From positions 1-42,670 of the forward strand of contig WFOA01000148.1 in NCBI GenBank assembly GCA_015488325.1: a DNA stretch of 42,670 nucleotides, written 5' to 3'. The translations under genes were made by a program, and so were the position numbers. Below, in pieces: positions 6,615-38,133 of this stretch. Numbering within the stretch: position 1 is the first letter of the stretch; each line of letters begins with the position of its first letter. The notes below the pieces were generated by a model. The model ran no database searches, was not told where the DNA came from, and worked only from the letters and a program-made list of their open reading frames with translations. This stretch comes from Acidimicrobiia bacterium (GTDB taxonomy: Bacteria; Actinomycetota; Acidimicrobiia; Spongiisociales; ZC4RG35).

Positions 6615-6642
6615 TTGAAGGCTGCCCTATCCGCCGTATAGT
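6615..6642 (+). promoter_or_regulatory. Promoter of the NRPS operon
   Basis: TTGAAG (6615-6620), a 16-nt spacer and TATAGT (6637-6642) form a good housekeeping-sigma promoter. The leader carries GGAGGGAG (6651-6658), 11 nt before ATG 6670. No regulator gene lies nearby. Confidence 0.6.
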
Positions 6643-6669: not shown

Positions 6670-8463
6670 ATGGGAGGCACGCTTTTCGATCTGGTGGCGA
6701 ACGCTTCGTCGCGCCACCCGGACCGACCGTTGCTCCTCGCCCCGGACCGAATCCCCCTCACCGGCGGAGCCTTGGAGACCGCCGTGGCGGACCTCGCCGG
6801 TGACCTGCGACGCCTCGGCGTCCGGGCCGGCGACGTCGTCGCCTCGGTCCTCCCCAACGGGCCCGAAGCCGTCACCATCTTCCTCGCCTCGGCGATCGCC
6901 GGGACCGCCGCCCCCCTCAACCCCGGCTACCGCACGGCGGAGATCGACTTCTACCTGGCCGACCTGACGCCTCGGCTCGTCGTCCTGCCGCCCGCCGGGG
7001 CGTCCGAAGCCGAGGAGGCGTGCCGACGTCGGGGCGTGCCCGTCGCCCGGCTGCGCCTTCACCCGGAGGCAGGCAGGGCGACGCTGACCGGGCACGAGGA
7101 CCCGGTCGACCATCCCCTCGACCCCGACCCCGAGGATGTCGCCCTCATCCTCCACACCTCCGGCACCACCTCCCGCCCGAAGATGGTGCCGCTCCGCCAC
7201 CGGAACCTGGCGGCGTCCGCCGCCCACGTCGCCGGCACGCTCCGCCTCACCGCCGACGACCGCTGCCTCAACGTCATGCCCCTCTTTCACATCCACGGAC
7301 TCGTCGCTGCGGTCCTCGCCAGCCTCTGCGCCGGCGGCTCGGTGGTGGCCACCCCCGGCTTCGTCGGGACCGAGTTCTTCGGGTGGTTCGAACAGTTCCA
7401 CCCCACCTGGTACACCGCCGTTCCCACGATCCACCAAGGGATCCTCGACCGCAGCGAATCCGCGCACCGGGTCATCGCCGCCAACCCGCTGCGGTTCATC
7501 AGGTCCTCGTCGGCGTCCCTCGCCCCACGGGTCATGTCCCGGCTGGAGGAGGTGTTCCGAGCTCCCGTCGTCGAAGCCTACGGGATGACCGAAGCCGCCC
7601 ACCAGATCGCCTGCAACCCGCTTCCGCCGGGGATCCGGAAGCCAGGCACCGTCGGTCCGCCGGCGGGTCCCGAAGTGGCGATCCTCACCACGGACGGGAT
7701 CGACACCCGACCGGGTGTCGAAGGGGAAGTGGTGATCCGAGGCGTCAACGTCACCTCCGGGTACCTGGCCGCCCCAGACGTGAACGCCGACGCCTTTGTG
7801 GACGGATGGTTCCGGACGGGCGACCTCGGGTCCTTCGACACCGACGGCTACCTGAAGCTCTTGGGTCGTTCGAAGGAGATGATCAACCGGGGCGGCGAGA
7901 CGATCGCCCCCCGGGAGATCGACGACGTCCTGCTGGAACATCCCGGGGTTCGTCAGGCGCTCGCCTTCGGCGTCCCCGACCGCCGCCTGGGTGAGCAGGT
8001 GGCCGCCGTCGTCGTCCCCGAACCCGACGCCGAGCTGGACGAGATGGAGCTGCGGCGCTGGACCGAGGCGAGGCTGTCGGCGGCGAAGGTACCCCGACGA
8101 ATCCTGTTCATGGATTCCATCCCCCGCGGTCCGACCGGGAAACTGCAACGAATCGGCCTGGCGGAGAGGCTCGGTCTCGCCGACCTCGACGGGACCGAAG
8201 CCAGACACGACCCGCCCACGCCTCCCCGAACCGCGCTCGAGCGCCTCCTCGCCGACCTGTGGGCCGAGGTGCTCCACGTCGAGGAGGTCGACGTCGAAGC
8301 CCCCTTCCTCGAGCTGGGAGGCGACTCCATGCTGGCCACCAGACTCCTCGCCCGAGTGCAGGAGACCCTCGACCTGGAGTTGTCGATGGTCGGGTTCTTC
8401 GACCGTCCCACCGTGGCGGCCCAAGCCACCTTCATCGAGGAGATGCTCGTCGACGATGGATGA
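6670..8463 (+). CDS. NRPS starter: acyl-adenylation domain fused to a carrier domain (A-T)
   Basis: A 597-aa adenylating enzyme with one C-terminal carrier domain. The A domain has HTSGTTSRPKMVPL (about 161-174), the AYGMTEAAHQ signature, GYL...FRTGDLG and the A10 motif GPTGKLQ. The carrier domain has LGGDSML with phosphopantetheine Ser553. The binding pocket resembles oxalyl-CoA synthetase/Pcs60-type ligases: MPLFHIHGL replaces the FD.S pattern, so the Asp that holds an alpha-amino group is His, and the starter is probably a carboxylic acid rather than an amino acid. It is the first gene of the operon and overlaps the next by 8 nt. It presumably loads the acyl group and hands it to the condensation domain of the next protein. 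Confidence 0.9.
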   Translation: MGGTLFDLVANASSRHPDRPLLLAPDRIPLTGGALETAVADLAGDLRRLGVRAGDVVASVLPNGPEAVTIFLASAIAGTAAPLNPGYRTAEIDFYLADLTPRLVVLPPAGASEAEEACRRRGVPVARLRLHPEAGRATLTGHEDPVDHPLDPDPEDVALILHTSGTTSRPKMVPLRHRNLAASAAHVAGTLRLTADDRCLNVMPLFHIHGLVAAVLASLCAGGSVVATPGFVGTEFFGWFEQFHPTWYTAVPTIHQGILDRSESAHRVIAANPLRFIRSSSASLAPRVMSRLEEVFRAPVVEAYGMTEAAHQIACNPLPPGIRKPGTVGPPAGPEVAILTTDGIDTRPGVEGEVVIRGVNVTSGYLAAPDVNADAFVDGWFRTGDLGSFDTDGYLKLLGRSKEMINRGGETIAPREIDDVLLEHPGVRQALAFGVPDRRLGEQVAAVVVPEPDAELDEMELRRWTEARLSAAKVPRRILFMDSIPRGPTGKLQRIGLAERLGLADLDGTEARHDPPTPPRTALERLLADLWAEVLHVEEVDVEAPFLELGGDSMLATRLLARVQETLDLELSMVGFFDRPTVAAQATFIEEMLVDDG

Positions 8464-11400
8464 CCGCAGCCACCGGATCGAACGGATCCTCGCCGAGCGC
8501 CTTCGCCGGGCCCGGTCGGGCATCGTCCACGTCGACGAGCCGACCGCTCCCCTCTCCCACGTGCAGCAGAGCCTGTGGATCCTGTCCCAGCTCGCCGGGA
8601 ACCGGCCGACCGCCCACCGTCCCCTCTCCCTGTCGGTCGGCGGTGAGCTCGACGTCGACGCCCTCGCAGCGGCCCTCGGCGCCGTCGTGCGACGCCATGC
8701 GGTGCTGCGGACCACCTTCCCCACCGACGGACCGGAACCGATCCAACGGGTGGAGGCGCCGGGTCCGGTGGACCTGCCGGTGGTCGACGTGTCCGGCGAT
8801 CCCGACCCAGCTACGGCGGCCCGCCGCGAAGCCGAACGTCACTTCCGTCGACCCTTCGACCTCACCCGGGAGGTGCCGTTCCGGCCGCTGCTGATCCGTC
8901 GGGGACCCTCCGACCATCTCCTGGCAGTGTCCCTCCACCACATCGTCTTCGACGGGTGGTCGGAGCGGATCTTCGTGAACGAACTCGTCGCCCACTACGA
9001 CGCCGCCGTCGAAGGCCGGACATCCGCCGACCTCCCGACCCCGACGATCGGCTTCGCCGATTTCGCTCGGTGGGAACGGAGCCAGATCGACGAGGAACGG
9101 ATCGCCGCCGACCTCGCATACTGGCGCAGACGTCTGGCCGACCTCCCCCCCGACCTGGACCTGCCGCCGGATCGGAGGCCTGCGGGCGACGTCGAACCGG
9201 TCTCGGCGAGGGTCCCGGTCGAACTGACCCGCCGGTTGGAGGCGTTGGCGACCTCGAACCGGGCGACGTTGTTCATGACGCTGCTCGCCGCCCTCCAGGT
9301 GCTCGTCGCCCGCCACAGCGGACAAGACGACGTCCTGGTCGGCGTCCCGACCGCCGGGAGGCCGCTGCCCGAAACCGAGCCGCTCATCGGGTGTTTCATC
9401 AACACCGTCGTCATCCGCGCCGACCTGGCGGGGAACCCTCCGTTCACCGCGGTGCTCGACCAGGCCCGGACCGCCACCCTCGAGGCCCTGGACCACGCCC
9501 GAGCGCCCTTCGGCCGGGTGTTCGGGGAGATCCGTCCTTGGACACCGGATCGGGTACCGCTGTACCGGGTGAGTTTCCAGCTTCGGAACTTCCCCGAACC
9601 GTTCCGACGGTCCGTCCATCTCGACGTGACGGTCACCGACGAGGCGCCTTCACCCGGTGACCACCTCACGCTCAGGGCCGCGCGAAACGACGACGGCGTC
9701 GCACTGACCTTCGGCTACGACCCGACCCGCTTCCGACGGGACACGATCGAACGCTGGGCGGGCCACTACCTGACCCTGCTCGAAGCCGTGGCGGAGGATC
9801 CCACCTCCGGGATCCGTGACCACGTCCTCCTCACCGCCACCGAGCGTCGCCGGGTGGTGGTGGACTTCAACGACGGTGCCACCCGTCCCGAGGGTCCCCG
9901 GACCCTCGTCGCCGATCGGGTCCGGCAGGTCGCCGCCCGCCTCCCCGACGCGACCGCCGTCGAAGACGGGGAGGAGCGGGTGAGTTTCAGAGACCTCGAC
10001 CTGATGGTCGATCGGGTGGCAGCCGCCCTCGTCGAACGGAACCTCGACGGCGAAGACCGGGTCGTGGTGTACGCCGACCGCAGCATCCCCACGATCGCCG
10101 GGATCCTCGGGGCGTTGCGGGCCGGCGTGGCCTACATCCCCGTGGACGCCGACCTCGCCACCGCCTGGTTGGGTACCGTCGTCGCCCAGGCTCGCCCGAG
10201 CCTGATCCTCACCCGCCCCTGGCTGGTCCCTGCGACAGCGTCCCTGGGGGTCGAGGTGGCCGTGCTCGACGACCTCGTCGACGGCCCCGCCTGCGCCCCC
10301 GTCGAAGGACGGGCCCGACCCGAGGACGTGGCGTACATCCTCTACACGTCGGGGTCGACCGGCCCACCCAAGGGGGTCCTCGTCGAGCAGCGAAACCTCG
10401 CCTCGTTCCTCGATTCGATGGCCGCGGTCCGGCCCCTCGGACCCGACGACCGGGTGATGCTGTTCCATTCGATCTCCTTCGACGCCGTCGCCAGCAACCT
10501 CCACGCCCCACTCGCCTTCGGCGCCTGCGTCGTCGTTCGGGACGAGGACGCGGTGGCGTCGATCCCCCGGCTGCTCCGGTGGTTGGACCGTCGGCGGATC
10601 ACCGTCATGAGTCTGCCCACCGGGATGTTCCACGCCCTGGCCGAGGAGATGGTGAAGACCGACACCGAGTTTCCGCCCCGCCTCCGTCTCATCTTCTTCG
10701 GCGGCGAGCAGGCGCGAGCCGACGTCGTCGGACGGTGGCTCCGGCGTTTCGGAGACCGGGTGGTGCTCCACAACTCGTACGGCCCGACGGAGACCACCGT
10801 CTTCGTGGCCTGGCACGAGTTCGGCGCCGACGATCTGGCCCTCGACTGGGTACCGATCGGCCGCCCTGTGCCGGGCACCGCCATCTACGTCCTCGACGAC
10901 CGGGGACGTCCAACGCCGATCGGTGTACGCGGCGAGATCTACGTCTCGGGGCCGTTGGTGGCCCGCGGGTACCTGGAGGCGCCGGAGCTGACCAATGCCC
11001 GGTTCCTGGCCGACCCCTTCCGGCCGGGGGAGCGGATGTATCGGACGGGCGACATCGGACGCTGGCTCCCGGACGGCACCCTGGAGACGCTGGGCAGGGT
11101 GGACCGCCAAGTGAAGGTCCGGGGCTTTCGGGTGGAACCGGGGGAGATCGAGGCCACCCTCCGCAGTTTCGACGACGTCGAAGACGCAGCCGTCGTACCC
11201 GCCGAGACGGCCGACGGGACCCGGGCGCTGCATGCGTACATCGTGGGCACCGCCGACCCCCTGGAGGTCCACGCCCGTCTCCGCACACGGCTTCCCTCGT
11301 TCCTGGTTCCCGCCACCGTCACCCCGGTCGAGACGCTTCCCGTCAACGTGGCGGGGAAACTCGACGTCCACAGTCTCCCCGATCCTCTCCGCCCGGAGCC

Positions 11401-11821
11401 GGTGAGCCGTCGCCGGTCCGGTCTCGGGCCGGCCGAGGAGGTGGCGGCGACGTGGCGGGAGGTGCTCGGCCTCGACGCCGTCGATCCCGACTCCTCCTTC
11501 TTCTCCCTCGGGGGGCATTCGCTGTTGGCACTCCGTCTGCTGTCACGCCTCCGGAACCGACTCGGATGCGAGGTGCCCCTCACGGTCCTCTTCGAACATC
11601 CGACCCTCCGCCTGTTCACCGCCGCGGTGGAGGCCCTCGTCACCGGGCAAGGATCCGACGGTTCCGTCGGAGCGGCCGAGCCCGCCCCGTCGACGAACCC
11701 TCCGCCCGTGTCCTCCGGCCTGGCGGCGGCGGACGTGGCGACGCTCCTCAAGGAGATCGAACAGCTCACCGACGAGGAGGCGGAAGCCCTCCTCGCCCGC
11801 CTCGACGAGGAGCCGACATGA
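8456..11821 (+). CDS. NRPS module C-A-T
   Basis: An 1121-aa elongation module. The condensation domain (about 30-430) has HHIVFDG at 161-167. The adenylation domain (about 480-960) has LYTSGSTGPPKGV near 629-641, YGPTETT, YRTGD and VAGKLD. Reading the ten specificity positions by alignment to GrsA gives D-A-S-S-I-F-S-V-F-K, which I cannot match to a known residue; Asp at the first place indicates an alpha-amino acid. The carrier domain has LGGHSLL with Ser1022. The C-terminal tail ends in a helical acidic segment (LLKEIEQLTDEEAEALLARL) typical of NRPS linker or docking helices. The ATG at 8456 overlaps the previous gene by 8 nt, and the stop overlaps the next gene as ATGA. Confidence 0.93.
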   Translation: MDDRSHRIERILAERLRRARSGIVHVDEPTAPLSHVQQSLWILSQLAGNRPTAHRPLSLSVGGELDVDALAAALGAVVRRHAVLRTTFPTDGPEPIQRVEAPGPVDLPVVDVSGDPDPATAARREAERHFRRPFDLTREVPFRPLLIRRGPSDHLLAVSLHHIVFDGWSERIFVNELVAHYDAAVEGRTSADLPTPTIGFADFARWERSQIDEERIAADLAYWRRRLADLPPDLDLPPDRRPAGDVEPVSARVPVELTRRLEALATSNRATLFMTLLAALQVLVARHSGQDDVLVGVPTAGRPLPETEPLIGCFINTVVIRADLAGNPPFTAVLDQARTATLEALDHARAPFGRVFGEIRPWTPDRVPLYRVSFQLRNFPEPFRRSVHLDVTVTDEAPSPGDHLTLRAARNDDGVALTFGYDPTRFRRDTIERWAGHYLTLLEAVAEDPTSGIRDHVLLTATERRRVVVDFNDGATRPEGPRTLVADRVRQVAARLPDATAVEDGEERVSFRDLDLMVDRVAAALVERNLDGEDRVVVYADRSIPTIAGILGALRAGVAYIPVDADLATAWLGTVVAQARPSLILTRPWLVPATASLGVEVAVLDDLVDGPACAPVEGRARPEDVAYILYTSGSTGPPKGVLVEQRNLASFLDSMAAVRPLGPDDRVMLFHSISFDAVASNLHAPLAFGACVVVRDEDAVASIPRLLRWLDRRRITVMSLPTGMFHALAEEMVKTDTEFPPRLRLIFFGGEQARADVVGRWLRRFGDRVVLHNSYGPTETTVFVAWHEFGADDLALDWVPIGRPVPGTAIYVLDDRGRPTPIGVRGEIYVSGPLVARGYLEAPELTNARFLADPFRPGERMYRTGDIGRWLPDGTLETLGRVDRQVKVRGFRVEPGEIEATLRSFDDVEDAAVVPAETADGTRALHAYIVGTADPLEVHARLRTRLPSFLVPATVTPVETLPVNVAGKLDVHSLPDPLRPEPVSRRRSGLGPAEEVAATWREVLGLDAVDPDSSFFSLGGHSLLALRLLSRLRNRLGCEVPLTVLFEHPTLRLFTAAVEALVTGQGSDGSVGAAEPAPSTNPPPVSSGLAAADVATLLKEIEQLTDEEAEALLARLDEEPT

Positions 11822-14800
11822 CCGCCACCCCGCTCCCGGATCCCACCGCACCCCTGGTCGCCGCCGGGTTCGCCCCGGTCGTCGACACTTTCCGCCGGTG
11901 GGTCGAGACCGCTCCCGACGCCGTCGCCGTCGAAGCCGAAGGGATGTCCCTCACCTATGGCCAGCTCGGCGAATGGGCGGACGCCATCGCCGCCGACCTC
12001 GTCTCCCACGGCGTCGAACGAGGACACCGGGTGGCGATCATCACCCGCCGAAACCCGGGGGCGATCGCGACGATGATCGCGACGCTGCAGGTGGGTGCGG
12101 TGATGGTGCCGGTCGACGCCTCCCTGCCTCCCCTTCGGGTCGAGACCCTCCTCGCCGCATCGGATCCCCGGATGTGCGCCGTCGTCGGCTCGGCCCTGGC
12201 CGATACGGCGGGCCGCCCGACCGTCGCCGTGCCCGAATGGCCACCGGCCCACCTCGACAGCTGCGGCGGAACGCACCGTGACGTGGGTCCCACCGATCCC
12301 GCCTACGTCTTCTTCACCTCCGGCACCACCGGCACCCCCAAGGGAGTCCTCGGCGCCCACGGCCCCCTCGCCCAGTTCATGGACTGGATGGCGTCCGAGT
12401 TCGGGATCGGTCGGGACGACCGGGTCGCCCTGACCCGGAGTCTCGGCTTCGACGCCGCACTCCGTGAGGTCTTCGTCCCCCTCACGGTCGGCGCCCGCAT
12501 CGTCGTCGCTCCCGACCCCTGGGATCCGGACCGGATCCTCGACTGGGTGGCCCGACGCCGGATCACCGTCCTCAACGCCACCCCGTCCCACGCCGACCTG
12601 TGGCTCGACGTGCCGACCGACCTGCCCACCGCTCTGCGCTGGGTGTTCTTCTCCGGTGAACGTCTCGACCGGCCCCTCGTCGAACGGTGGCGTAAGCTCG
12701 TCGCTCCCCCCGGATCCCTCGTCAACCTGTACGGACCCACCGAGACCACCTTCATCCGGAGTTTCCACCGGGTCGAGGACCACCCCGACGACGGGCCCAT
12801 CCCGGTGGGACGTCCCCTTCCGGCATCCCAGCTCCTCGTGGTCGACGCGACCGGACGGCTCTGCGGACCCGACGAACCAGGTGAGGTGCTGATCAGGACG
12901 GCCTACGGAACCCTCGGCTACCTCGACGGTGACAGCGGCGGACGTTTCGTCCCCAACCCCTTCACCGGCGACGCCGACGACGTCGTCTACCGGACCGGTG
13001 ACGTCGGCTGGTATCGACCGGACGGGACGGTGGTCGTCTCGGGTCGGGTCGACGACCAAGTGAAGATCCTCGGTCTCCGGGTCGAACCTGCGGAGGTCGC
13101 AGCCGTCCTCGAGTCGCATCCCGGCGTCCGTCGGGCGGTGGTGGTGGGGGTCGGGGAGAGTCCGGTCCGTCTCGTCGGCTTCGTCGTCCCCGAAGGGTCC
13201 ACACCCGACCCCGGCGACCTCCGGCGCCACGCCCAGGAGCGGCTTCCCAGCCCTGCCGTCCCCGCCAAGATCCTGGTCACCGACCGGATCCCGGTCACCT
13301 CCAACGGCAAGACGGACCGGGAGGCGTTGCGGGCCCGAGCCGAAGCCGAGATCCTGAACCGTCACCCCGACCCGACGCAGACGGTCCGCCGCGACGACCT
13401 CGAAGACCGTCTCGCTCGGCTCTCCCCGGCGAAACGGGCCCTGTTGGAGGCCCGCCTGCGGCAGCGTTCCGCCCCACCGGTCCGGGAAGCTCCGTTGTCG
13501 CCGGCCCAGGAGAGGCTCTGGTTCCTCGACCGGCTCTACCCGGGACGGGCCTTCTACAACATCCCCCGGGTCCACCGGCTGCACGGACGGCTCGACGTCG
13601 AAGCGCTCCAGCGAGCATGCGACCTCGTGGCCGCTCGCCACGAGATCCTGCGGACCCGGTATGTGGACCGCGACGGTGAGCCGGTCCAGGTGGTCGACCC
13701 GCCCGGTCCGGCACCGTTCTCGTTCATCGACCTGTCGGGCCGGGCCGACGCCGAAGCCGAACTGAAGACGATCGACGAAGCCGAGGCCGACCGGGGCTTC
13801 GACCTCGCCGCCGGGCCGATCTGGCGTGTCACCCTGATCCGGCTCGGACCGACCGAACATCTGCTGCGGGTCGTGATCCATCACATCGCCGCCGACGGCT
13901 GGTCGCTCCCCATTCTGTACCGGGAGATGTCGGAGGCCTACCGGGCCTTCGTGCACGGCGACGCACCTCGCCTCGACCCCCTACCGATCCAATACGCCGA
14001 CTACGCCGAACGTCAGCGGCGCCGGATCGCCGAAGGTGCCTACGCCGATGCTCTGCGCTTCTGGGCCGATCACCTCCGCGACGCCCCCGAACTGTTGTCC
14101 CTTCCTACCGACCGGCCCCGGCCACCGGTGACGTCGTCTCGGGGACGCAGACTCCAGTTCCGTTGCCCGTCGGCCCGGACCGACGCCTTCACCAGGATCG
14201 TCCGTGACGAGGCGGCCACCCCGTTCATGGTCGGTCTGGCACTCTACGTGGCGTTGCTGCACCGCCTCGCCCGAACCGACGACCTGGTGGTGGGCGTACC
14301 CAGCGCCGACCGGTCCGACACCGACACCCATTCGCTGATCGGGTTCCTGGTCAACACCCTGGCTCTGCGCTCGACGATCACCCCCGAGATGACGTTCCGG
14401 GACCTGGTCCGGGAGACGCGCCGCCGGGTGATCGAAGCGTTCGACCACCGGGAAGTGCCCTTCGAGCATGTGGTCCGGGAGTTGTCTCCACCACGTCACG
14501 CCGACCGAACCCCCCTCTTCCAGGTGTTCTTCCAGTTCGGGGTCGATGCGTTCCGCGCCCGGCCGGAGTTCCCCGGCGTCGACGCCGAGCCTGTCGGGCA
14601 GGAGACGACGACCTCCAAGTTCGACCTCACCATGTACCTGTCGGCGCACCAGGAGTGCCTCGGAGGCACCGTCGTCTTCGCCACCGACCTGTTCGACGAA
14701 CCGACGATCGACGGTTTCATGCGGGAGTTCGACCTTCTCGCCGGAAGGCTCCTCGACAGCCCCGACAGCCCCATCGGAACGGGCGAACCGTCCCTACCGT

Positions 14801-17800
14801 CGGCCGCTGCGGCGTCCCCGGCGCCGAAGGTCACCCAGACGCACCCGGGCCGGTCGAAACCCGACCCGCAGACCGTCGAGACCATGTGCCGCATCTGGGC
14901 GGACCTCCTCGGCGTGGACGTCGGTCCCGACGACGACTTCTTCGTCCTGGGAGGACATTCCCTCCTCGCCATCAGGGTCTTCTCCCAGATCGAGACGGAA
15001 TGGGGAGTTCAGCTCCCGATCAGCGCGATCTTCGAGGCGACCACCCCCCGCACCTTGGCCGCCCGCCTCACCGACGACCATCTGCCCGAAGTGGCAGAGC
15101 CCGAGGCTCCGTCCGTGCAACGGTATCCTCTCTCGTTCTCACAACGACGACTCTGGTTCCTCGATCGTCTTGACCCGGGCGCGGGCAACTACCACACCCC
15201 GTGGCAGGTGAGGCTCCGGGGACGGCTCGACCTGAAGGCCCTGCAGGCAGCCGTCACCGACCTCGTCGAACGCCATGCCGTGTTCCGCACCCGGATCGTC
15301 ACCGAACGGGGCGAGCCGATGGGCGAAGTCGATCCCCCCGGACCGGTCGAAGTGACGGTGGTCGACGTCGCCGAAGAAGACCTCTCCGACGTGCTCTCCG
15401 AGGAAGCTCGGCGACCCTTCGACCTCGGCGCCGACTGGACCCTCCGCGCGACGGTCTTCCGGTTGGGTCCCGACGACCAGGTCCTCTCCTTCGTCGCCCA
15501 CCACATCGCCACCGACGCCGACTCGATGACGATCTTCCAGCGAGAGCTCGCCGAGCTCTATACAGCCCACCTGGAGGGACGGCCGCCCCGTCTCGAGCCG
15601 CTCCCGACGAGCTACGCCGAGTTCGCCCGCGCCCAGATCGAACGGTTCTCGTCCCGGGGGGAGCCCCATCTCCGCTGGTGGCTCGACACCCTCGCCGGGG
15701 ATCTGCCGATCCTGGACCTGCCCACCGACAAGGCCAGGCCCCTCACCGCCGCCCGGGAGGGTGACACCGCCTACACGAGGCTCGGATCCGACGTCGTCGA
15801 CGCGCTCCTCGGGTTGGCCGGGGAGGTGCGGGCCACCCCCTTCATGGTCACCCTCGCCGCCTTCGCCACCCTCCTCGCCCGCTACACCCGCCAGGACGAG
15901 GTCGTCATCGGCATCCCCGCGACGGAGCGGTCCTCCCTCGAGACGGAGGGCCTCATCGGCTTCTTCGTCAACTCTCTGCCGATCCGCCTGACCGTCGACC
16001 CGAACGACCGTTTCCGGGACCTGGTGAGCCGGGTGAGACAGGCCGTCCTCGACGCCCTGGACCACCGTGACGTCCCCTTCGAGGCGATCGTCGAGCATCT
16101 CGACCCGCCCCGCGACCCGTCCCGCACCCCCATCTTCCAGACGATGTTCGACATGGGCCATCCCTCTCCCGAAGCGTTCAGCCTCCCCGGCCTGGAACGG
16201 ATCCCCCTCGGTGTCCGCCGCCGGCGACGACCCGCCAAGTTCGACCTCCGGGCCCACGCCTCCTTCGGTGATGGACGGTTCGTCACGTTCTTCGAGTACC
16301 GAACCGACCTGTTCGAACCGGGCACCATCGAGGACATGGCGGAGCAGTTCGGACGACTCCTCACCTCCGCCGTCACCTCCCCCGACACCGAGATCGGCGA
16401 CCTGGCCATGGCCGCACCCACCGACCGGTCTCACCTCCCGGCGGTACAGGCGCCGACGGGTACCGTCCACGAGGCGTTCGAACGGATCGTCCGGGAACGT
16501 CCCGGCTCCGTCGCCGTGACCCACGGCGAGGTGGACGTCACCTTCGCCGAGCTGGACCGGGCCGCCGACGAGCTCGCCGCCGCCCTGGCCGATGCCGGGG
16601 TGAGACCGGGAGACACCGTCGGAGTCCGGATGCCACGTTCGGTCGGCATCGTGGCGACCCTGCTCGCGATCCTCCGCCGGGGGGCGGTCTACGTACCCCT
16701 CGACGAGTCGTACCCGCCGGAACGGATCAGAACCATCATCGAAGACGCGAAGCTGGCGGCGATCGTCGAGCCCGGACCGAAGGTCGAACGGTTGGACCGT
16801 CCCGCCGAACCACGCCTGGACGCGACGCAGCTCCCCGCCTACGTCATGTACACGTCGGGGTCCACCGGCCGCCCGAAGGGGGTGGTGGTGCCCCACCGGG
16901 CGATCCTGCGCCTGGTGACGGACCCCGACTATGTGGATCTCGGTCCCGACCGGGTCGTCGCCTTCGCCTCGAACACCGGGTTCGACGCCGCCACCTTCGA
17001 GATCTGGGGGAGTCTCCTCAACGGTGGGCGTCTGGTGGTCCTCGACCGCGACGTCGTCCTCTCCCCCGACGCCCTCGCCGGCGCACTGCGACGGTTCGGT
17101 GTGACGACCATGTTCGTCACCACCGCCCTGTTCAACACCGTGGTCGCCCGCCGTGGGGACGCCTTCGCCTCCCTCGACACGCTGCTGTTCGGCGGCGAGG
17201 CGGTGGACACCGAAGCCGTGAGGCGCTGTCTCCGTTCCGGTCCGCCCCGCCGCCTCGTCCATGTGTACGGGCCCACCGAGACGACCACCTTCGCGACGTG
17301 GCATCTCGTCGACGCCCTCGCCGACGACGCCCGCACGGTACCGATCGGACGTCCGATCACCGCCACCACGGTCCGTGTCGTCGACGCCTCCGGCCGGGAC
17401 CTCCCCCGGGGAGTGCCCGGGGAGTTGGTGATCGGCGGCCCCGGGGTCGCCCTGGGATACCTTGGCGACCCCGAGCTCACCGAGCGACGGTTCCGGCCGT
17501 CCCCGAACGGTCCCGAATACTGGACCGGCGACCTGGTGCGGAGACGTCACGACGGCGACATCGAGTTCCTGGGGAGGTTGGACCGGCAGGTGAAACTGCG
17601 GGGATTCCGGGTGGAACCCGGCGAAATCGAGACGCACCTCACCTCCCATCCCCGGATCGACGCCGCCGTGGTGGTTCCCCGGCCAGGCCCCTCCGGGATG
17701 CAACTGGTCGCCTACGTGGTGGGCGACGTCACCCCCGGCGAAGCCACCGACCACCTGCGGGGACGGATACCGTCGTTCATGGTGCCGGCGGCGGTCGTGC

Positions 17801-18951
17801 CGATACCGGAGCTGCCCCTCACCCCGAACGGGAAGATCGACCTGTCCGCCCTTCCCGAACCGACCCGGGCTCCGAGCCCCTACGTGGCGCCGTCCGGCGA
17901 AGCGGAGGAACGAATGGCTCGACTCTGGGAGCAGATCCTCGAGGTGGAACGGGTCGGCGCCACCGACGACTTCTTCGCCCTGGGAGGCCATTCCCTGCTG
18001 GCGATCAAGCTGTTCGCCGCCATCGCCGACGAGTTCGGGGTGTCCGCTCCGCTCTCCATCCTCTTCGAGGCACCCACCGTCGAGGCCCTCACCGCCCGGA
18101 TCGTCGCCGCCGCCGGCACCGACGAGGCACCGTCTCCCCCGCCGGTGGTCACCATCCGTCCCGGCGGCGACCGGCCACCGCTGTTCTGTTTCCCCCCGGC
18201 CGGAGGCAACGTCATGGTGTACGAGCCGATGGCCCGGGCCTTCGACGGTGAACGGCCGATCCTCGGAATCCAGGCTCCGGGAGCGGACGGCACCGTCGAG
18301 CCGCTCCGCACCATCGACGCCTTGGCCCGCTACTGCGAGGAGGTGATCCTCGCCGTCGAGCCGGAGGGCCCCTACCTGTTCGCCGGGTACTCGTTCGGTG
18401 GGATGATCGCCTACGAGACCGCCCGGCGGATGAGAGCCGCCCAACGCGATGTCGCCCTCGTCGTCCTCATCGACACCCGGACCATTCCCCCTCTCGATCT
18501 CGGCTCCGAGATCCGCCGGGACCTGGACCTCGTCCGCCGGCACGGCCGACAGGGGGTGAAGGCCGTGGGACGCCGGTTCCTGGCCCGCCTCCGCCGTGTG
18601 GCCGGCCGGGTCCGCCACGAACCCAAGGTCCTCTGGTATCGGATCACCGGCCGACCCCTCTCCCCCCTCCTCGCCGGGCGACGCCTCACCGCCGCCAGCA
18701 TCGAAGCCGCCAGTGGCTACCAGCCGCCCCCCTACGACGGTCGGGTCCTGTATCTGGTCGCCGGGGGTCTGCCGGCCCGGTGGCGGCGACGGGCCATCGA
18801 ACCGTGGCGTCGGGCGACGACCGGACCCTTCGACGTCGCCGAAGTGCCCGGGACCCACAAGGGGTCCCGCTCGGTCATGGATGAACCCAACGCCCGGCTC
18901 CTGGCCGAGCGGATCCGCCAGGAACTCGCCCGAGAGGAGACGTCACCATGA
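11818..18951 (+). CDS. Terminal NRPS, domain order A-C-T-C-A-T-TE
   Basis: A 2377-aa synthetase. Order seen: A (TSGTTGTPKGV about 167-177, YGPTETT about 304, SNGKTD about 493); no carrier motif follows, only a linker DLEDRLARLSPAKRALLEARL (about 527-547) of the kind that usually begins a protein; C with HHIAADG (688-694); T with Ser1048; C with HHIATDA (1228-1234, the usual Gly is Ala); A (TSGSTGRPKGV near 1679, FDAATFEIW near 1722); T with Ser2059; thioesterase with GYSFGG (Ser2192) and a GTHKG His. The last A domain reads D-A-F-F-L-G-V-T-F-K, close to codes for branched aliphatic residues. The first A domain reads D-A-R-N-V-F-L-F-I-K, not recognised. No epimerase or methyltransferase domain is seen. 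Confidence 0.93.
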   Translation: MTATPLPDPTAPLVAAGFAPVVDTFRRWVETAPDAVAVEAEGMSLTYGQLGEWADAIAADLVSHGVERGHRVAIITRRNPGAIATMIATLQVGAVMVPVDASLPPLRVETLLAASDPRMCAVVGSALADTAGRPTVAVPEWPPAHLDSCGGTHRDVGPTDPAYVFFTSGTTGTPKGVLGAHGPLAQFMDWMASEFGIGRDDRVALTRSLGFDAALREVFVPLTVGARIVVAPDPWDPDRILDWVARRRITVLNATPSHADLWLDVPTDLPTALRWVFFSGERLDRPLVERWRKLVAPPGSLVNLYGPTETTFIRSFHRVEDHPDDGPIPVGRPLPASQLLVVDATGRLCGPDEPGEVLIRTAYGTLGYLDGDSGGRFVPNPFTGDADDVVYRTGDVGWYRPDGTVVVSGRVDDQVKILGLRVEPAEVAAVLESHPGVRRAVVVGVGESPVRLVGFVVPEGSTPDPGDLRRHAQERLPSPAVPAKILVTDRIPVTSNGKTDREALRARAEAEILNRHPDPTQTVRRDDLEDRLARLSPAKRALLEARLRQRSAPPVREAPLSPAQERLWFLDRLYPGRAFYNIPRVHRLHGRLDVEALQRACDLVAARHEILRTRYVDRDGEPVQVVDPPGPAPFSFIDLSGRADAEAELKTIDEAEADRGFDLAAGPIWRVTLIRLGPTEHLLRVVIHHIAADGWSLPILYREMSEAYRAFVHGDAPRLDPLPIQYADYAERQRRRIAEGAYADALRFWADHLRDAPELLSLPTDRPRPPVTSSRGRRLQFRCPSARTDAFTRIVRDEAATPFMVGLALYVALLHRLARTDDLVVGVPSADRSDTDTHSLIGFLVNTLALRSTITPEMTFRDLVRETRRRVIEAFDHREVPFEHVVRELSPPRHADRTPLFQVFFQFGVDAFRARPEFPGVDAEPVGQETTTSKFDLTMYLSAHQECLGGTVVFATDLFDEPTIDGFMREFDLLAGRLLDSPDSPIGTGEPSLPSAAAASPAPKVTQTHPGRSKPDPQTVETMCRIWADLLGVDVGPDDDFFVLGGHSLLAIRVFSQIETEWGVQLPISAIFEATTPRTLAARLTDDHLPEVAEPEAPSVQRYPLSFSQRRLWFLDRLDPGAGNYHTPWQVRLRGRLDLKALQAAVTDLVERHAVFRTRIVTERGEPMGEVDPPGPVEVTVVDVAEEDLSDVLSEEARRPFDLGADWTLRATVFRLGPDDQVLSFVAHHIATDADSMTIFQRELAELYTAHLEGRPPRLEPLPTSYAEFARAQIERFSSRGEPHLRWWLDTLAGDLPILDLPTDKARPLTAAREGDTAYTRLGSDVVDALLGLAGEVRATPFMVTLAAFATLLARYTRQDEVVIGIPATERSSLETEGLIGFFVNSLPIRLTVDPNDRFRDLVSRVRQAVLDALDHRDVPFEAIVEHLDPPRDPSRTPIFQTMFDMGHPSPEAFSLPGLERIPLGVRRRRRPAKFDLRAHASFGDGRFVTFFEYRTDLFEPGTIEDMAEQFGRLLTSAVTSPDTEIGDLAMAAPTDRSHLPAVQAPTGTVHEAFERIVRERPGSVAVTHGEVDVTFAELDRAADELAAALADAGVRPGDTVGVRMPRSVGIVATLLAILRRGAVYVPLDESYPPERIRTIIEDAKLAAIVEPGPKVERLDRPAEPRLDATQLPAYVMYTSGSTGRPKGVVVPHRAILRLVTDPDYVDLGPDRVVAFASNTGFDAATFEIWGSLLNGGRLVVLDRDVVLSPDALAGALRRFGVTTMFVTTALFNTVVARRGDAFASLDTLLFGGEAVDTEAVRRCLRSGPPRRLVHVYGPTETTTFATWHLVDALADDARTVPIGRPITATTVRVVDASGRDLPRGVPGELVIGGPGVALGYLGDPELTERRFRPSPNGPEYWTGDLVRRRHDGDIEFLGRLDRQVKLRGFRVEPGEIETHLTSHPRIDAAVVVPRPGPSGMQLVAYVVGDVTPGEATDHLRGRIPSFMVPAAVVPIPELPLTPNGKIDLSALPEPTRAPSPYVAPSGEAEERMARLWEQILEVERVGATDDFFALGGHSLLAIKLFAAIADEFGVSAPLSILFEAPTVEALTARIVAAAGTDEAPSPPPVVTIRPGGDRPPLFCFPPAGGNVMVYEPMARAFDGERPILGIQAPGADGTVEPLRTIDALARYCEEVILAVEPEGPYLFAGYSFGGMIAYETARRMRAAQRDVALVVLIDTRTIPPLDLGSEIRRDLDLVRRHGRQGVKAVGRRFLARLRRVAGRVRHEPKVLWYRITGRPLSPLLAGRRLTAASIEAASGYQPPPYDGRVLYLVAGGLPARWRRRAIEPWRRATTGPFDVAEVPGTHKGSRSVMDEPNARLLAERIRQELAREETSP

Positions 18952-19577
18952 CCGCCACCGCCGTCCAGGTCACCGTGGACCTGTGGTTCGGTGAGCCTCG
19001 CCCGGGACCGATCGAGCTGCTGTCCGCCGACGAACGCCTCCGGGCCGACCGTTTCGTGTCCGACGTCGCCCGTGCCGAGTTCGTGGCGACCCGCACCTGG
19101 CTGCGGTCCATCCTCGCCGGATACGTGGGGGTGCCTGCGGCGTCGCTGCGGTTCCGGCTCGGACGGTGGGGAAAGCCCAGCCTGGTCGGATACGACCTGG
19201 AGTTCTCGGTGAGCCACGCCCGAGGCCCGGTGCTGGTGGCAGTGTGCGCCGGCCATCCGGTGGGCGTGGACCTCGAGACCCTGCGGCCGGGAGTGTGGGA
19301 TCCCGCCGCCGCCTCCCTCGTGCTGACACCGCAGGAGATGAAGACCGTCCGATGCGCCACCGACCCCGACGCCGCCTTCCTCGGCCTGTGGACCCGGAAG
19401 GAGGCGTATTCGAAGGTCTTCGGTCGGGGCCTCACCGACCGACTGGCCTCCGTCGATCTGCGTGCCGACCCCACCCTGGTGGACGGCATCGAGGTACGGT
19501 CCCTCGACTTGGGCCCGAACTTCGTCGCCTCCCTCGCCTGCCCCCAGGGGGCGGTGGGCACGTGGAGGACCCGATGA
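18948..19577 (+). CDS. Sfp-type 4'-phosphopantetheinyl transferase
   Basis: A 209-aa enzyme that transfers phosphopantetheine from CoA to the serine of carrier domains, turning apo-NRPS into its active form. Seen: RTWLRSILAGYVGV, GKPSL, the FSVSHARG strand, PVGVDLE (metal-binding Asp and Glu) and LWTRKEAYSKVFGRGL (the W..KEA..K signature). The length fits the Sfp/Gsp subgroup used in secondary metabolism. The ATG overlaps the terminal NRPS stop as ATGA, and the stop overlaps the transporter start the same way, so it is translated with the synthetases it probably serves: Ser553, Ser1022, Ser1048 and Ser2059 of the three proteins. Confidence 0.95.
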   Translation: MTATAVQVTVDLWFGEPRPGPIELLSADERLRADRFVSDVARAEFVATRTWLRSILAGYVGVPAASLRFRLGRWGKPSLVGYDLEFSVSHARGPVLVAVCAGHPVGVDLETLRPGVWDPAAASLVLTPQEMKTVRCATDPDAAFLGLWTRKEAYSKVFGRGLTDRLASVDLRADPTLVDGIEVRSLDLGPNFVASLACPQGAVGTWRTR

Positions 19578-21229
19578 CCCGCCGGGCCATCCGCCGCTAC
19601 GCCCGGTACTACCGCTCGTCCCGAAACAGGCTCGCCCTCGGACTGTTCCTGTCCCTCCTCCAGGCCCTGGCACTGGTCCCGGTGCCGATCCTGGTCCGGG
19701 TCGCGATCGACGAGGCCATCCCCTCCAAGGACGTCGGCCGGCTGGTGGGCCTCGGGTTCGTCATCCTCGCCTTGGCGACCGCAGGGGCGGCCATCTCCCT
19801 GGCGGCCGGGTACATGACCGCCACCGCCGTACGTGCGGCCGTCCGCCGCCTCCGCGCCGACGCGGTGACCAAGCTGTTCGCGGTGAGCCGCCGTTTCATC
19901 ACGGCGGCGGAGCCGTCGGTGCTCCACGACCAGATCGTCCAGGAGACGGCACGGGTGAGCGCGGGAACGTCGGCGGTGCTGGGGAACTTCCTCCCGGGCG
20001 TGGTGCTGGTCGCCGGGATCGGTGCCGTCCTGGTCGCCATGAACCCGACGCTCGCCCTGGTCACGTTGGCGTTCGGCCCGCTCATCTTCTTCGCCGGACG
20101 CCTCCTCGGGCGGGAGGTGCAGGCCCGGGTGGAACGTCAACATCACGCATTCGAACGTTTCAGCCGGGAAGTCCTGCGGGTGTTGCGGACGATGGACCTG
20201 ATCCGCACCCACGGCGCCGAAGACCTCGAGATGCGCCGCATCGACCGCACCGCCGGCGACCTGGAGTCGGCCGGGGTGTCACGCACCCTGTGGAGCAACG
20301 CCTACTCGGTGACCCAGTCGACCCTGCTCGCCCTCGCCGGAGCCGGGGTCCTCATCATCGGCGGTGTCTTCGTCGTCCGCGGCCAGATGAGTCTCGGCGA
20401 TCTGATCTCGTTCTACGCCGGGTTCGCTCTCCTCCGCGGGCCCCTCGCCGGCATCGCCATCCGAGTCCCGGCGGTGATCGAAGGCGTCACGTCGCTCCGC
20501 CACCTCATGGAGCTCCTCGACGAACCAGACATTCGCCCCTATCGGGGACGACGGCGGGTGACGGCCACCGGGTGGCTCAAACTCGTCGACGTCACCTTCG
20601 CCTACGACACCGAGCCGGTCCTCCACGACGTGTCCCTGGAGCTGGAACGGGGCAAGGTGACGGCGGTGGCCGGACCCAACGGTTCGGGAAAATCGACGAT
20701 CGTCAACCTCATCCTCGGGTTTTACCGTCCCCAGCGGGGTGAGTTGTTCGCCGACGGACACCCCTATCCGGAGGTGGACCTGATCGAGCTGCGGCGGCAG
20801 ATGGGAGTGGTGCCCCAGCAGACGATCATCCTCAACGCCTCGATCCTCGACAACATCACCTACGGGCGGCCCGACGTCGACGAGGCGGCCGTCCGGACCG
20901 CCCTCGAAGTGGCCGAAGCCGACTTCGTCGAACGCCTCCCCGACGGCCTCCACACCCTGGTCGGCGAAGAGGGCGTCTTCCTTTCAGGTGGGCAGCGCCA
21001 GCGTCTCGCCATCGCCCGCGCCGTCCTCCACCGACCTGCCCTGTTGATCCTCGACGAACCCACCAACCACCTGGACCGGGCCTCGATGGAGTCGGTGATG
21101 CGGAACATCGCCGCTCTGCGTCCCCGCCCGGCGGTGCTGCTGATCAGCCACCGGACGGAGGTGCTGGACACCGTCGACGAGCTGGTCGAGCTGAAGGAGG
21201 GTCGGGTCATCTCGGTGAACCCCAGCTGA
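19574..21229 (+). CDS. ABC exporter, fused membrane and ATPase domains
   Basis: A 551-aa half-transporter of the B family. The N-terminal membrane domain (about 1-310) has around six helices. The ATPase domain has Walker A GPNGSGKST (367-375), a Q-loop region (GVVPQQT), signature LSGGQRQRLAIARA, Walker B LLILDEPTNHLD and a switch His in LLISHRTEV. One such subunit would form a homodimer. As the last gene of the NRPS operon (ATGA overlap with the PPTase gene, GGAGG upstream) it most likely exports the peptide product and may give self-resistance. The substrate is inferred from context only. Confidence 0.93.
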   Translation: MTRRAIRRYARYYRSSRNRLALGLFLSLLQALALVPVPILVRVAIDEAIPSKDVGRLVGLGFVILALATAGAAISLAAGYMTATAVRAAVRRLRADAVTKLFAVSRRFITAAEPSVLHDQIVQETARVSAGTSAVLGNFLPGVVLVAGIGAVLVAMNPTLALVTLAFGPLIFFAGRLLGREVQARVERQHHAFERFSREVLRVLRTMDLIRTHGAEDLEMRRIDRTAGDLESAGVSRTLWSNAYSVTQSTLLALAGAGVLIIGGVFVVRGQMSLGDLISFYAGFALLRGPLAGIAIRVPAVIEGVTSLRHLMELLDEPDIRPYRGRRRVTATGWLKLVDVTFAYDTEPVLHDVSLELERGKVTAVAGPNGSGKSTIVNLILGFYRPQRGELFADGHPYPEVDLIELRRQMGVVPQQTIILNASILDNITYGRPDVDEAAVRTALEVAEADFVERLPDGLHTLVGEEGVFLSGGQRQRLAIARAVLHRPALLILDEPTNHLDRASMESVMRNIAALRPRPAVLLISHRTEVLDTVDELVELKEGRVISVNPS

Positions 21230-21274: not shown

Positions 21275-21496
21275 TCAGCGGTAACGCCAGACGATCCGGC
21301 CTTTGGTCGGGTCGTAGGTGGAGACTTCGACTTCGACTTCGTCGCCCGGCAGGATCCGGATCATCCGACCGCGCCGCATCCGACCGGCAGGGCGGGCGGT
21401 GACGACCAGCCCGCCTTCCAGCTCGACCTTGAAGGTGGCGTCCCGAAGGACCTGCACCACCTTGCCCCGCATGCGGACGTACTCATCCTGTTTCAT
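21275..21496 (-). CDS. infA: Translation initiation factor IF-1 (divergent copy)
   Basis: A 73-aa S1/OB-fold protein recognised as IF-1 from GKVVQVLRDATFKVELEGG, then RMIRILPGDEVEVEVSTYDPTKGRIVWRYR. IF-1 blocks the ribosomal A site and helps IF-2 and IF-3 during initiation. The segment usually reading LAHISGKMR is TARPAGRMRRGR here, so it is more basic and unlike the standard actinobacterial protein. It stands alone rather than in the usual adk-map-infA-rpmJ ribosomal cluster, so a second, specialised copy is possible. A -10 (TATCCT, plus-strand 21523-21528) gives a leader of about 20 nt holding the imperfect palindrome ACCTCGG-a-CCGAGGT (21505-21519); no clear Shine-Dalgarno is seen. Confidence 0.9.
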   Translation of the reverse strand: MKQDEYVRMRGKVVQVLRDATFKVELEGGLVVTARPAGRMRRGRMIRILPGDEVEVEVSTYDPTKGRIVWRYR

Positions 21497-21562: not shown

Positions 21563-22486
21563 TCAGATGTGGAGGTGGTCGGCGGCCCGCCCGGCAGGGG
21601 GCAGCGGACGGAAGCGGGCAGGGGGAACCGGAGCTCCCACCCGCGTCAACGCCAGCTTCCACGACGGGGAGAACCCCAACGCCCAACGCAGCCCGACGAC
21701 GGCGGCCCGTCCGGCCGGGATCGCCCCTCTGCGACGGCGCACCCCCAGCACCGTCCGGATTCGGTCGGGGACGATCCCGACGGCCGCTTCGAGGAGGATT
21801 CGGTACCCGTGACGTTGCAGACGACCCAACGGCGGGTCGCAGAGAAACCCGACCGCTTCGACCATGCCCGGAGAGGGACCGATGTCGGGATGGTCGGCAA
21901 CCCAGGAGGAGAGGGAGGCGGCGTCCCGTGGCAGAGGGTCGGCGTCGAGCAGGGCGCCGAGGCGTGCCTGCTCGGCGACGAACCGGTCGGCCTGTTCGGC
22001 GGTGAGGGGTTCGGCACCGAACACCTGGTGGGCGGCGAGGAAGGAATCCACCAGCGTGTTGTGCACCCACGCCGCCAAGGCGGGGTCGTCGGCTGCGTAG
22101 GGTCGCCCCCGATGGGACTGCCCCACCACCCGACGGTGGGCCCGTCGGACCGCCGCCAGCGCCTCCTCCACTTCCGGCATCGCCCCATAGGCGGTGGCGG
22201 TCACGTAGGCGGAGGTGCGGGAGAGGCGACCCATGGGGTCGCTCCGGTAGGCGGAATGGTCGGCCACACCGGCGACGACTTCGGGATGGGCGGCCTGGAT
22301 CAGCAGGGCCCGGATCCCCCCGACGAAGGTGGCGACGTCGGCCATCACCTTCCACGTGACCGACCCAGGTCCGAACAGGCCGGGGTCCCCCGAGTACTCC
22401 AGGCTGCGGGCGAGCGGGTAGGGGGCGTGGGTGAAGGGTCCGGTGGCCGAGGCCACCACCCGGCGACGGATCCGCTCCGTGAACAT
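21563..22486 (-). CDS. DUF2236 / MpaB-like oxygenase family protein
   Basis: A 307-aa member of the DUF2236 family, related to latex-clearing protein and the MpaB oxygenase. Diagnostic stretches are GPGSVTWKVMADVATFVGGIRALLIQAAHPEVVAGVADHSAYRSDPMGRLSRTSAYV near the N-terminus, then WVHNTLVDSFLAAHQVFG and a C-terminal PAGRAAVVGLRWALGFSP region. Some relatives bind heme b; conserved His residues are present but the function here is unknown. The ATG at 22486 was chosen because similarity begins there. The start is 63 bp from that of the divergent primase gene, so the two probably share a control region. Confidence 0.88.
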   Translation of the reverse strand: MFTERIRRRVVASATGPFTHAPYPLARSLEYSGDPGLFGPGSVTWKVMADVATFVGGIRALLIQAAHPEVVAGVADHSAYRSDPMGRLSRTSAYVTATAYGAMPEVEEALAAVRRAHRRVVGQSHRGRPYAADDPALAAWVHNTLVDSFLAAHQVFGAEPLTAEQADRFVAEQARLGALLDADPLPRDAASLSSWVADHPDIGPSPGMVEAVGFLCDPPLGRLQRHGYRILLEAAVGIVPDRIRTVLGVRRRRGAIPAGRAAVVGLRWALGFSPSWKLALTRVGAPVPPARFRPLPPAGRAADHLHI

Positions 22487-22535
22487 GGTCCAAGTCTCCC
22501 ACCCTCCGACCGCAAGCCGTAGATCGGCGGGGGAG

Positions 22536-22541
22536 ATACGG
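22536..22541 (+). promoter_or_regulatory. -10 box of the primase-HIRAN gene, leaderless
   Basis: TACGGT, 8 nt before GTG 22550. The upstream GTG at 22541 overlaps the hexamer itself, so it is a poorer start. Confidence 0.5.
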
Positions 22542-37221: not shown

Positions 37222-37259
37222 CCGTCGCCCTCCGGCTCGTGGCGGCGGCTCCCCTCGGC

Positions 37260-37265
37260 TACCTT
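37260..37265 (+). promoter_or_regulatory. -10 box of cysM, leaderless
   Basis: TACCTT, 7 nt before GTG 37273. A TTG at 37264 overlaps this hexamer and is therefore a weaker start. Confidence 0.4.
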
Positions 37266-37272
37266 GCCGCCG

Positions 37273-38133
37273 GTGAAACCCGGCAACACCCCCCTCGAAG
37301 AGCTGCGACGTCTCGCCCCGCCCGGGACCCGCCTCTTCGCCAAGTTGGAATGGTTCAACCCGACCGGTTCGATCAAAGACCGGCCAGCCTGGTACATGTT
37401 CCGCAACGCCGTCGAAGACGGCAAGCTCCGGCCCGGTCAGCCCATCATCGAAGCGACGTCGGGCAACACCGGGATCGGCCTGGCCCGGCTGGCGATCATC
37501 CACGGCCACCCGATGGTGATCTGCCTTCCCCGGTCGGCGACGGAGGAACGCAAACAGCTCCTGCGGGCCTACGGCGCCGAGCTGATCGAAGTCGAAGGCG
37601 GACCCAACGACGCCATCGCCCATGCCCGGGAGCTGGTCGACGCCGGCGAAGGCCACATGCTCTACCAGTACGGCAACCGGTGGAACGTCTACGCCCATTT
37701 CTTCGGGACCTCCCAGGAGATCCTGACCGGGTGGCCGCTGACGGAGCCACCCACCCACCTGTTCGCCGCCTACGGGACCGGCGGCACCCTCACCGGCAAC
37801 AGCAGGGCCCTGGTCCGGGTATGGCCGCATCTCCGGATCCATTCGGTGGAGCCCTACGTCGACGACCCGATCGGAGGGATGCGGTCCCAGGACGATCCCT
37901 TCCAGCCGCCCGTCGCCGATCTGTCCCTGGTGACCGACCGCCACGAGGTGGGGGTGGCAACGGCGACGGCGATGGTGGCGGAGACGATGAAGACCGAAGG
38001 CCTGTTCGTGGGGACCTCGTCGGGGGCGATCCTCCACGCGGCCGTCGACACCCTCAGTCGGGAAGGAGGCACCGCCGTCGCCCTCCTCCCCGACGCCGGC
38101 TGGAAGTACCTCTCCGGTCCGCCCTGGAGCTGA
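37273..38133 (+). CDS. cysM: PLP-dependent cysteine synthase, O-phosphoserine (CysM) type
   Basis: A 286-aa fold-type II PLP enzyme close to M. tuberculosis CysM. Matching stretches are GNTPL, NPTGSIKDRPA (PLP Lys35), EATSGNTGI, ERKQLLRAYGAELI, MLYQYGNRWN..AHFFGTSQEI, GTGGTL, TEGLFVGTSSGAILHAA and DAGWKYLS. M. tuberculosis CysM uses O-phospho-L-serine, recognised by Arg220; an Arg is kept in the equivalent loop (DDPIGGMRSQDDPF). Activity is therefore probably O-phosphoserine plus a sulfide donor giving cysteine. No cysO/mec sulfur-carrier genes are in the window. The SbnI-like serine kinase at 3933-4715 could supply the substrate. A diaminopropionate-type (SbnA-like) role is an alternative. 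Confidence 0.88.
   Translation: MKPGNTPLEELRRLAPPGTRLFAKLEWFNPTGSIKDRPAWYMFRNAVEDGKLRPGQPIIEATSGNTGIGLARLAIIHGHPMVICLPRSATEERKQLLRAYGAELIEVEGGPNDAIAHARELVDAGEGHMLYQYGNRWNVYAHFFGTSQEILTGWPLTEPPTHLFAAYGTGGTLTGNSRALVRVWPHLRIHSVEPYVDDPIGGMRSQDDPFQPPVADLSLVTDRHEVGVATATAMVAETMKTEGLFVGTSSGAILHAAVDTLSREGGTAVALLPDAGWKYLSGPPWS

Follow-up and report, generated by a model that had tools for sequence, protein, structure and literature searches.

A conserved, self-contained nonribosomal peptide synthetase operon with an oxalate-CoA-ligase-type loading domain in an Acidimicrobiia bacterium

Introduction

What does a nonribosomal peptide synthetase (NRPS) operon make when it appears to carry every step from starter activation to export, and which acid primes it? 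The question is raised by five genes at positions 6670–21229 of a 42,670-nucleotide stretch of Acidimicrobiia bacterium DNA (contig WFOA01000148.1, assembly GCA_015488325.1; hereafter the window). An earlier note, made from the DNA letters and their reading frames, described these genes as an orphan operon with its own phosphopantetheinyl transferase (PPTase) and exporter. Judged from its relatives, the operon is a real conserved system, and its loading adenylation (A) domain groups by sequence with the oxalate-CoA ligase (AAE3/Pcs60) subfamily. We put the probability that it is a self-sufficient assembly line with an oxalate-ligase-type starter at roughly 60%, a figure that does not extend to oxalate itself. 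What is new beyond the earlier note is the conservation in relatives, the PPTase linkage, the oxalate-ligase-type starter, the meaning of a module with a permuted domain order, and the distinction between conserved and variable positions.

Organization of the operon

The five genes are all on the + strand (6670–8463, 8456–11821, 11818–18951, 18948–19577 and 19574–21229), with successive overlaps of 8, 4, 4 and 4 nt, and the gene ends and Pfam matches bear out the claim of overlapping genes running from starter activation to export. With C, T and TE standing for condensation, carrier and thioesterase domains, the products in gene order are A-T, C-A-T, A-C-T-C-A-T-TE, an ACPS-family protein and an ATP-binding cassette (ABC) exporter, and Pfam E-values for the domains range from ~1e-12 (PPTase) to 1e-181. 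The first protein, referred to here as AT (6670–8463; Pfam AMP-binding, AMP-binding_C and PP-binding), has an oxalate-CoA-ligase-like A domain at ~6670–8169 followed by carrier T1 at ~8233–8445. The second (8456–11821; Condensation, AMP-binding and PP-binding) has a C domain at 8537–9856, an A domain at ~9923–11368 and a carrier at ~11438–11626, with intact motifs HHIVFDG in the C domain and LGGHS in the carrier.

The third protein is 2377 residues long in a single open frame (11818–18951), with two AMP-binding, two Condensation, two PP-binding and one Thioesterase match in Pfam. It begins with an A domain that lacks a following carrier of its own (11875–13332; code DARNFSLFIK), followed by a C domain with intact HHIAADG (13486–14781) and the carrier of this permuted A-C-T module (14863–15072; LGGHS). 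A second C domain (15118–16431) has the motif HHIATDAD, a variant present in every orthologue that shows it, and precedes an A domain with the valine/isoleucine-type code DAFFLGVTFK (16477–17847), the last carrier (17911–18102; LGGHS) and a type I thioesterase (18175–18927). Motif searches find the LGG[DH]S serine in all four carriers, A10 lysines in the A domains and GYSFG in the TE domain, and two of the C domains have HHxxxDG, while HHxxxDA is the form in the third. The checked catalytic motifs of the assembly line are all intact, and together with the Pfam matches they uphold the domain order given earlier; a single operon that encodes C, A, T and TE domains, motifs intact, has the attributes of a modular type I NRPS, as does the presence of an Sfp/EntD-type PPTase gene, the product of which would activate the carriers. 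The last two genes encode the Sfp-type PPTase (18948–19577; Pfam ACPS) and an MsbA-like ABC exporter half-transporter with a membrane domain and an ATPase (19574–21229; Pfam ABC_membrane and ABC_tran).

The operon contig belongs to a 2.9-Mb genome assembly that is 98% complete, and the 16S gene of this assembly matches two Actinomycetota probes, one with 0 mismatches and the other with 1. There are three condensation-family domains in this genome, all within the operon and all assigned as C domains, and there is therefore no epimerase and no second NRPS to help. Two PPTase-family genes are present: that of the operon, which is the only Sfp/EntD-type gene in the genome, and an AcpS-sized gene of 129 residues at another locus. 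The system is thus self-contained as the earlier note proposed, with the only Sfp-type PPTase of the genome, its only C domains and an exporter of its own. No MbtH-like gene was found in the genome or in six relatives, and the operon does not have the appearance of an MbtH-dependent NRPS. No tailoring gene or regulator was found in common among those clusters of other families that have visible flanks. The earlier note had listed an epimerase, an MbtH-like gene, tailoring enzymes and regulators as absent.

Conservation in related genomes

Searches covered the family, order, class and phylum, and the contigs of matches were then read. The NRPS and exporter genes recur in six more genomes from the taxonomic order of the window, spanning three families in all, with protein identities to the window of 49–77%. 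One is a further species of the genus (G022), in which AT is 77% identical and the cluster is divided between two contigs; the others are five species in two other families of the order. In three of these (G035, G037 and G044) the AT, C-A-T, A-C-T-C-A-T-TE and ABC genes are complete and in the gene order of the window, and in the other two (G043 and G045) the contigs cover AT and a portion of C-A-T before they stop. The domain order of the third protein is the same in G035, G037 and G044 and, as two pieces, in G022. The earlier note had suggested looking for this gene order in related genomes, and it is present on three contigs with the whole NRPS and exporter set. The cluster is rare: AT-type matches at E < 1e-110 are found in 9 of the 138 genomes of the order, seven of which are this cluster.

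The exporter is 63–64% identical in the other families of the order and, where visible, always directly follows the third synthetase or the PPTase. G022 has the same PPTase gene inside the operon. In the two other families the in-operon gene is missing, and an EntD-type PPTase adjoins the exporter on the opposite strand, convergent with it (L114, ~1578–2375; L116, 15773–16324; L117, 5682–6395); this protein shares almost no sequence with the window PPTase. The contigs of G035, G037 and G044 continue beyond the exporter, and in these genomes this PPTase is the only non-AcpS member. G043 and G045 have further ACPS-family genes of similar size, two of them in G043, on contigs other than that of the cluster. 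The cluster therefore adjoins the only Sfp/EntD-type PPTase of the genome wherever the contig reaches that far, and because two unrelated enzymes occupy the same place, the PPTase appears to be a functional part of the system.

The starter domain

The earlier note had predicted a product of one starter acid and three amino acids. This agrees with the carrier count and with the first A domain; AT lacks Asp235, as a domain for a carboxylic-acid starter should. Over 503 residues AT shares 46% identity with the Arabidopsis oxalyl-CoA (coenzyme A) synthetase AAE3, and its best PDB sequence matches are AAE3, the grass pea oxalyl-CoA synthetase and yeast Pcs60. The AlphaFold model of AT has a mean pLDDT (predicted local distance difference test score) of 83.6, and a fold search ranks the same oxalyl-CoA synthetases first, so that 5ie0/5ie2/5ie3, 6qjz and 8aff are the top matches by both sequence and fold. 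Ligases for dihydroxybenzoate (DHB) and salicylate rank further down the list, and AT is closer in sequence and fold to the oxalyl-CoA synthetases than to other ligases.

The pocket gives a similar picture. At the NRPS specificity positions AT has H G A T R S A H Q, where AAE3 has H G A T R C A H L and Pcs60 has H G G S R C A H Q, and H209, G210, T249, R278 and H311, the pocket residues of the oxalate-CoA-ligase family, are all conserved. The residues at the specificity positions are identical in seven species. A role for these residues in oxalate binding is predicted. Because of the identity to AAE3, the PDB matches and the H209-R278-H311 pocket, oxalate is the leading candidate for the starter acid, although we would put it just short of an even chance. 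AT differs from a free-standing catabolic oxalyl-CoA-forming enzyme in that it is fused to a carrier, and no oxalyl-CoA decarboxylase above the curated cut-off was found in its genome.

Several observations weigh against oxalate. Three residues at or near the pocket of the Arabidopsis enzyme, C301, A324 and L331 (NRPS numbering), are S, G and Q in AT, and these differences could widen the pocket. In several genomes, free-standing relatives with the same pocket adjoin a ketopantoate-reductase-like gene and not an evident oxalate pathway, so that some ligases of the subfamily may act on different small acids. In the cluster-bearing genomes no oxalyl-CoA decarboxylase reached the curated cut-off, and an oxalate economy is therefore not visible in them. 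An alternative explanation that draws on these observations is that the same assembly line starts with another small acid, such as malonate, glyoxylate, a 2-oxo or 2-hydroxy acid, or an aryl acid, and we regard this as having close to an even prospect of being correct. It has to contend with an H-G-A-T-R...H pocket that is that of the oxalyl-CoA synthetases and is invariant in the seven orthologues, and with the distribution of H209, R278 and H311, a set that AT shares with AAE3 and with every relative above ~47% identity and that is missing from all of the more distant acyl-CoA ligases compared.

A wider group of AAE3-type fused starters

Other AAE3-type fused starters occur in further families of the class (G180, G149, G259, G304 and G171/G159), and every copy except one has the pocket of AT. 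In a phylogenetic tree the fused AAE3-like domains form one group except for one of the two G180 copies, with moderate branch support (86/80), and the seven AT copies of this cluster form one branch with support of 100/99. The synthetases that follow the starter differ in layout. In G180 and G149 an AAE3-like A-T is followed by C-A-T-TE and an ABC exporter, a synthetase shorter than that of the window; the second G180 copy is A-T-C. The fused starter is followed by C-A-A-T-TE in G304 and by C-A-T-C-A-C-A-T in G259, and in G171 and G159 the AAE3-like A-T has a thioesterase in the same chain (A-T-TE alone). From these domain layouts and the tree, the window operon belongs to a broader set of NRPSs that share an AAE3-type starter.

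The A codes of the G180 (L133) and G149 (L136) loci are DAIDIGAVEK and DALDIGAVEK respectively, and a pattern search did not find HHxxxDG in their C domains; the predicted product would be the starter acid on one amino acid.

We note three further features. Two loci (L138, 7088–9685; L139, 6202–8796) encode proteins of ~865 residues with an AAE3-like A domain, a carrier and a thioesterase and with no condensation domain. The synthetase of G259 (L135, 3–9221) has the A codes DVRHFSLMAK and DAWFLGVTFK, similar to the pair of codes that is conserved in the window operon, and one of its A domains leads directly into a C domain with no carrier detected between them. Lastly, free-standing AAE3-like ligases adjoin a ketopantoate-reductase-like gene (ApbA/PanE) at L031, L142, L143 and L144, in Actinomycetota and in an alphaproteobacterium, and this pair may represent an undescribed small-acid pathway.

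Residue specificity and the predicted product

The amino acid-activating domains depart from one another in how well their codes are conserved. The A domain of the C-A-T protein has the code DASSFGSVFK in the window and DGTKSGTVYK or DANRAGSVWK elsewhere, differing even within the genus. The code of the permuted-module A domain is DARNFS[LF]F[IV]K in all orthologues. With Arg239 and Asn278, the window version, DARNFSLFIK, appears to resemble codes for side-chain-linked acidic residues, such as aminoadipate in the synthetase of aminoadipyl-cysteinyl-valine (ACV) and methylaspartate in microcystin synthetase; two such codes were looked for in the literature and neither was found. The last A domain has DAFF[LM]G[VA]TFK in all orthologues, and in the window its code, DAFFLGVTFK, matches the published valine code DAFWIGGTFK at 7 of 10 positions (PMC11355689). 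Since the AT, permuted-module and last A pockets are conserved while the middle A pocket varies, the family probably builds a single scaffold in which one residue varies.

A route to the product can be proposed, in which AT would activate a small carboxylic acid, with oxalate the likeliest, and transfer it to its own carrier, and the C-A-T protein would add the first, species-variable amino acid. The A domain that opens the third protein would load the carrier past the adjacent C domain, which would join the chain to the second residue, and the last C-A-T would add a valine/isoleucine-type residue. The TE would release an acyl-tripeptide by hydrolysis or cyclisation, the ABC protein would export it, and the linked PPTase would activate the four carriers. 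The starter, the residue identities, the mode of release and the export of the product are predictions from domain content and order.

What such a product might do is a separate matter. One proposal, compatible with an oxalate-ligase-type starter, is a metal-chelating or 2-oxoglutarate-mimicking acid-rich peptide with an N-oxalyl cap and a side-chain-joined acidic residue. The code DARNFSLFIK would fit such a residue, and an oxalyl cap would give a product with several carboxylates. Against this, the two codes were sought without success in the literature as described above, and the operon has no metal-uptake gene. We consider this function unlikely.

The permuted A-C-T module

In the third synthetase the A10 lysine and the following C domain are separated by ~60 residues with no carrier motif between them. 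This linker contains the helix LSPAKRALLEARLR, and helices of this kind are the type found ahead of C domains. The linker is longer in the orthologues, and their consensus has two copies of a LSPAKRALLEARLR-type helix. An overlooked carrier between the two domains was considered and rejected, as there are only ~60 residues in the window and no GGxS. The A-C-T order is kept in every relative in which the region is present, all orthologues retain an intact C-domain motif, HHIA[AS]DGWS, and the closest solved C domains are canonical ones (e.g. Txo1/Txo2).

With no carrier between the A and C domains, the A domain must, on this arrangement, load the carrier beyond the C domain, and an intact C motif in a protein that lacks any cyclisation domain suggests, on grounds of anatomy, that the C domain has to work. 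A-C-T would then be a working elongation module. Structure prediction for this segment was poor (5 sequences, pLDDT 52) and was not used, which counts against this interpretation. That the C domain is instead structural, as is reported for the inactive C domain of VibF that is required for dimerisation (PMC5577590), with one bond fewer or with another C domain acting out of order, is improbable given a motif that is intact in all orthologues and a protein without the cyclisation domain with which VibF could form the bond.

Promoter and flanking genes

A promoter-like site, TTGAAG-16-TATAGT, at 6615–6642 (+) precedes the first gene. It is the sole such site in 16.3 kb, where 0.4 would be expected by chance, and is consistent with the single good promoter reported ahead of the operon. 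In the same-genus genome G022 the TTGA and CGTATAGTGC of the site are kept, and the remaining intergenic stretch has diverged. Upstream, beyond this site, there is an alpha/beta hydrolase gene on the same strand. Downstream, infA (21275–21496) and then an MpaB/Lcp-type oxygenase gene (21566–22540, − strand; Pfam MPAB_Lcp_cat) are convergent with the operon. Farther along the window (35563–38133) are genes for a thiamine-diphosphate enzyme and then a cysteine-synthase-like pyridoxal phosphate enzyme. The former (35563–37221) was considered as an oxalyl-CoA decarboxylase and rejected, as it falls far below the cut-off of that family and is nearer to acetolactate-synthase-like and 2-hydroxyacyl-CoA lyase models, the cut-offs of which it does not reach either.

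Implications and comparison with known systems

No NCBIfam equivalog above cut-off was found for the operon proteins, no close named relative was found, and the papers searched, including those on oxalyl units in NRPSs, contained no precedent; within these sources the description of the operon as an orphan stands. The system appears to be an NRPS variant with a possible new priming unit. More broadly, there may be an NRPS lineage in uncultured actinobacteria that starts with oxalyl and makes N-oxalyl, oxamic-acid-capped peptides, with several families and layouts and one branch with a working A-C-T module; we rate this below even odds. If the starter is oxalate, a two-carbon diacid would be added to the known priming units of NRPSs, and this would point to N-oxalyl peptides, the simplest member of which, N-oxalylglycine, mimics 2-oxoglutarate. 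The conserved A-C-T module, its C domain being intact, would be evidence that normal elongation can proceed with an A domain upstream of its C domain, and such a module would be useful in the re-engineering of NRPS enzymes. The operon is small and has its own PPTase and exporter and no visible tailoring, so that both the starter and the permuted module are directly testable.

Unlike plant AAE3, yeast Pcs60 and the grass pea enzyme, which act on free CoA, AT is fused to a carrier and appears to serve as an NRPS loading module. A non-amino-acid starter on an N-terminal carrier is a feature shared with aryl-acid-capped and lipopeptide NRPSs, in which EntE/DhbE or fatty acyl-AMP ligases (FAAL) act as stand-alone acid ligases. 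In contrast to those systems, AT groups with the oxalyl-CoA synthetases, and the cluster has no aryl- or fatty-acid supply gene; with a starter ligase of a different type, the operon does not resemble an aryl-acid (DHB or salicylate) siderophore system. For the permuted module VibF is a precedent, in which A and C domains also precede one carrier in one protein. The domain content of VibF includes a catalytically inactive C1 domain and two cyclisation domains that make the oxazoline (PMC5577590), whereas the operon protein has an intact C motif and no cyclisation domain, which would make its A-C-T module similar to that of VibF in order and different in its predicted chemistry.

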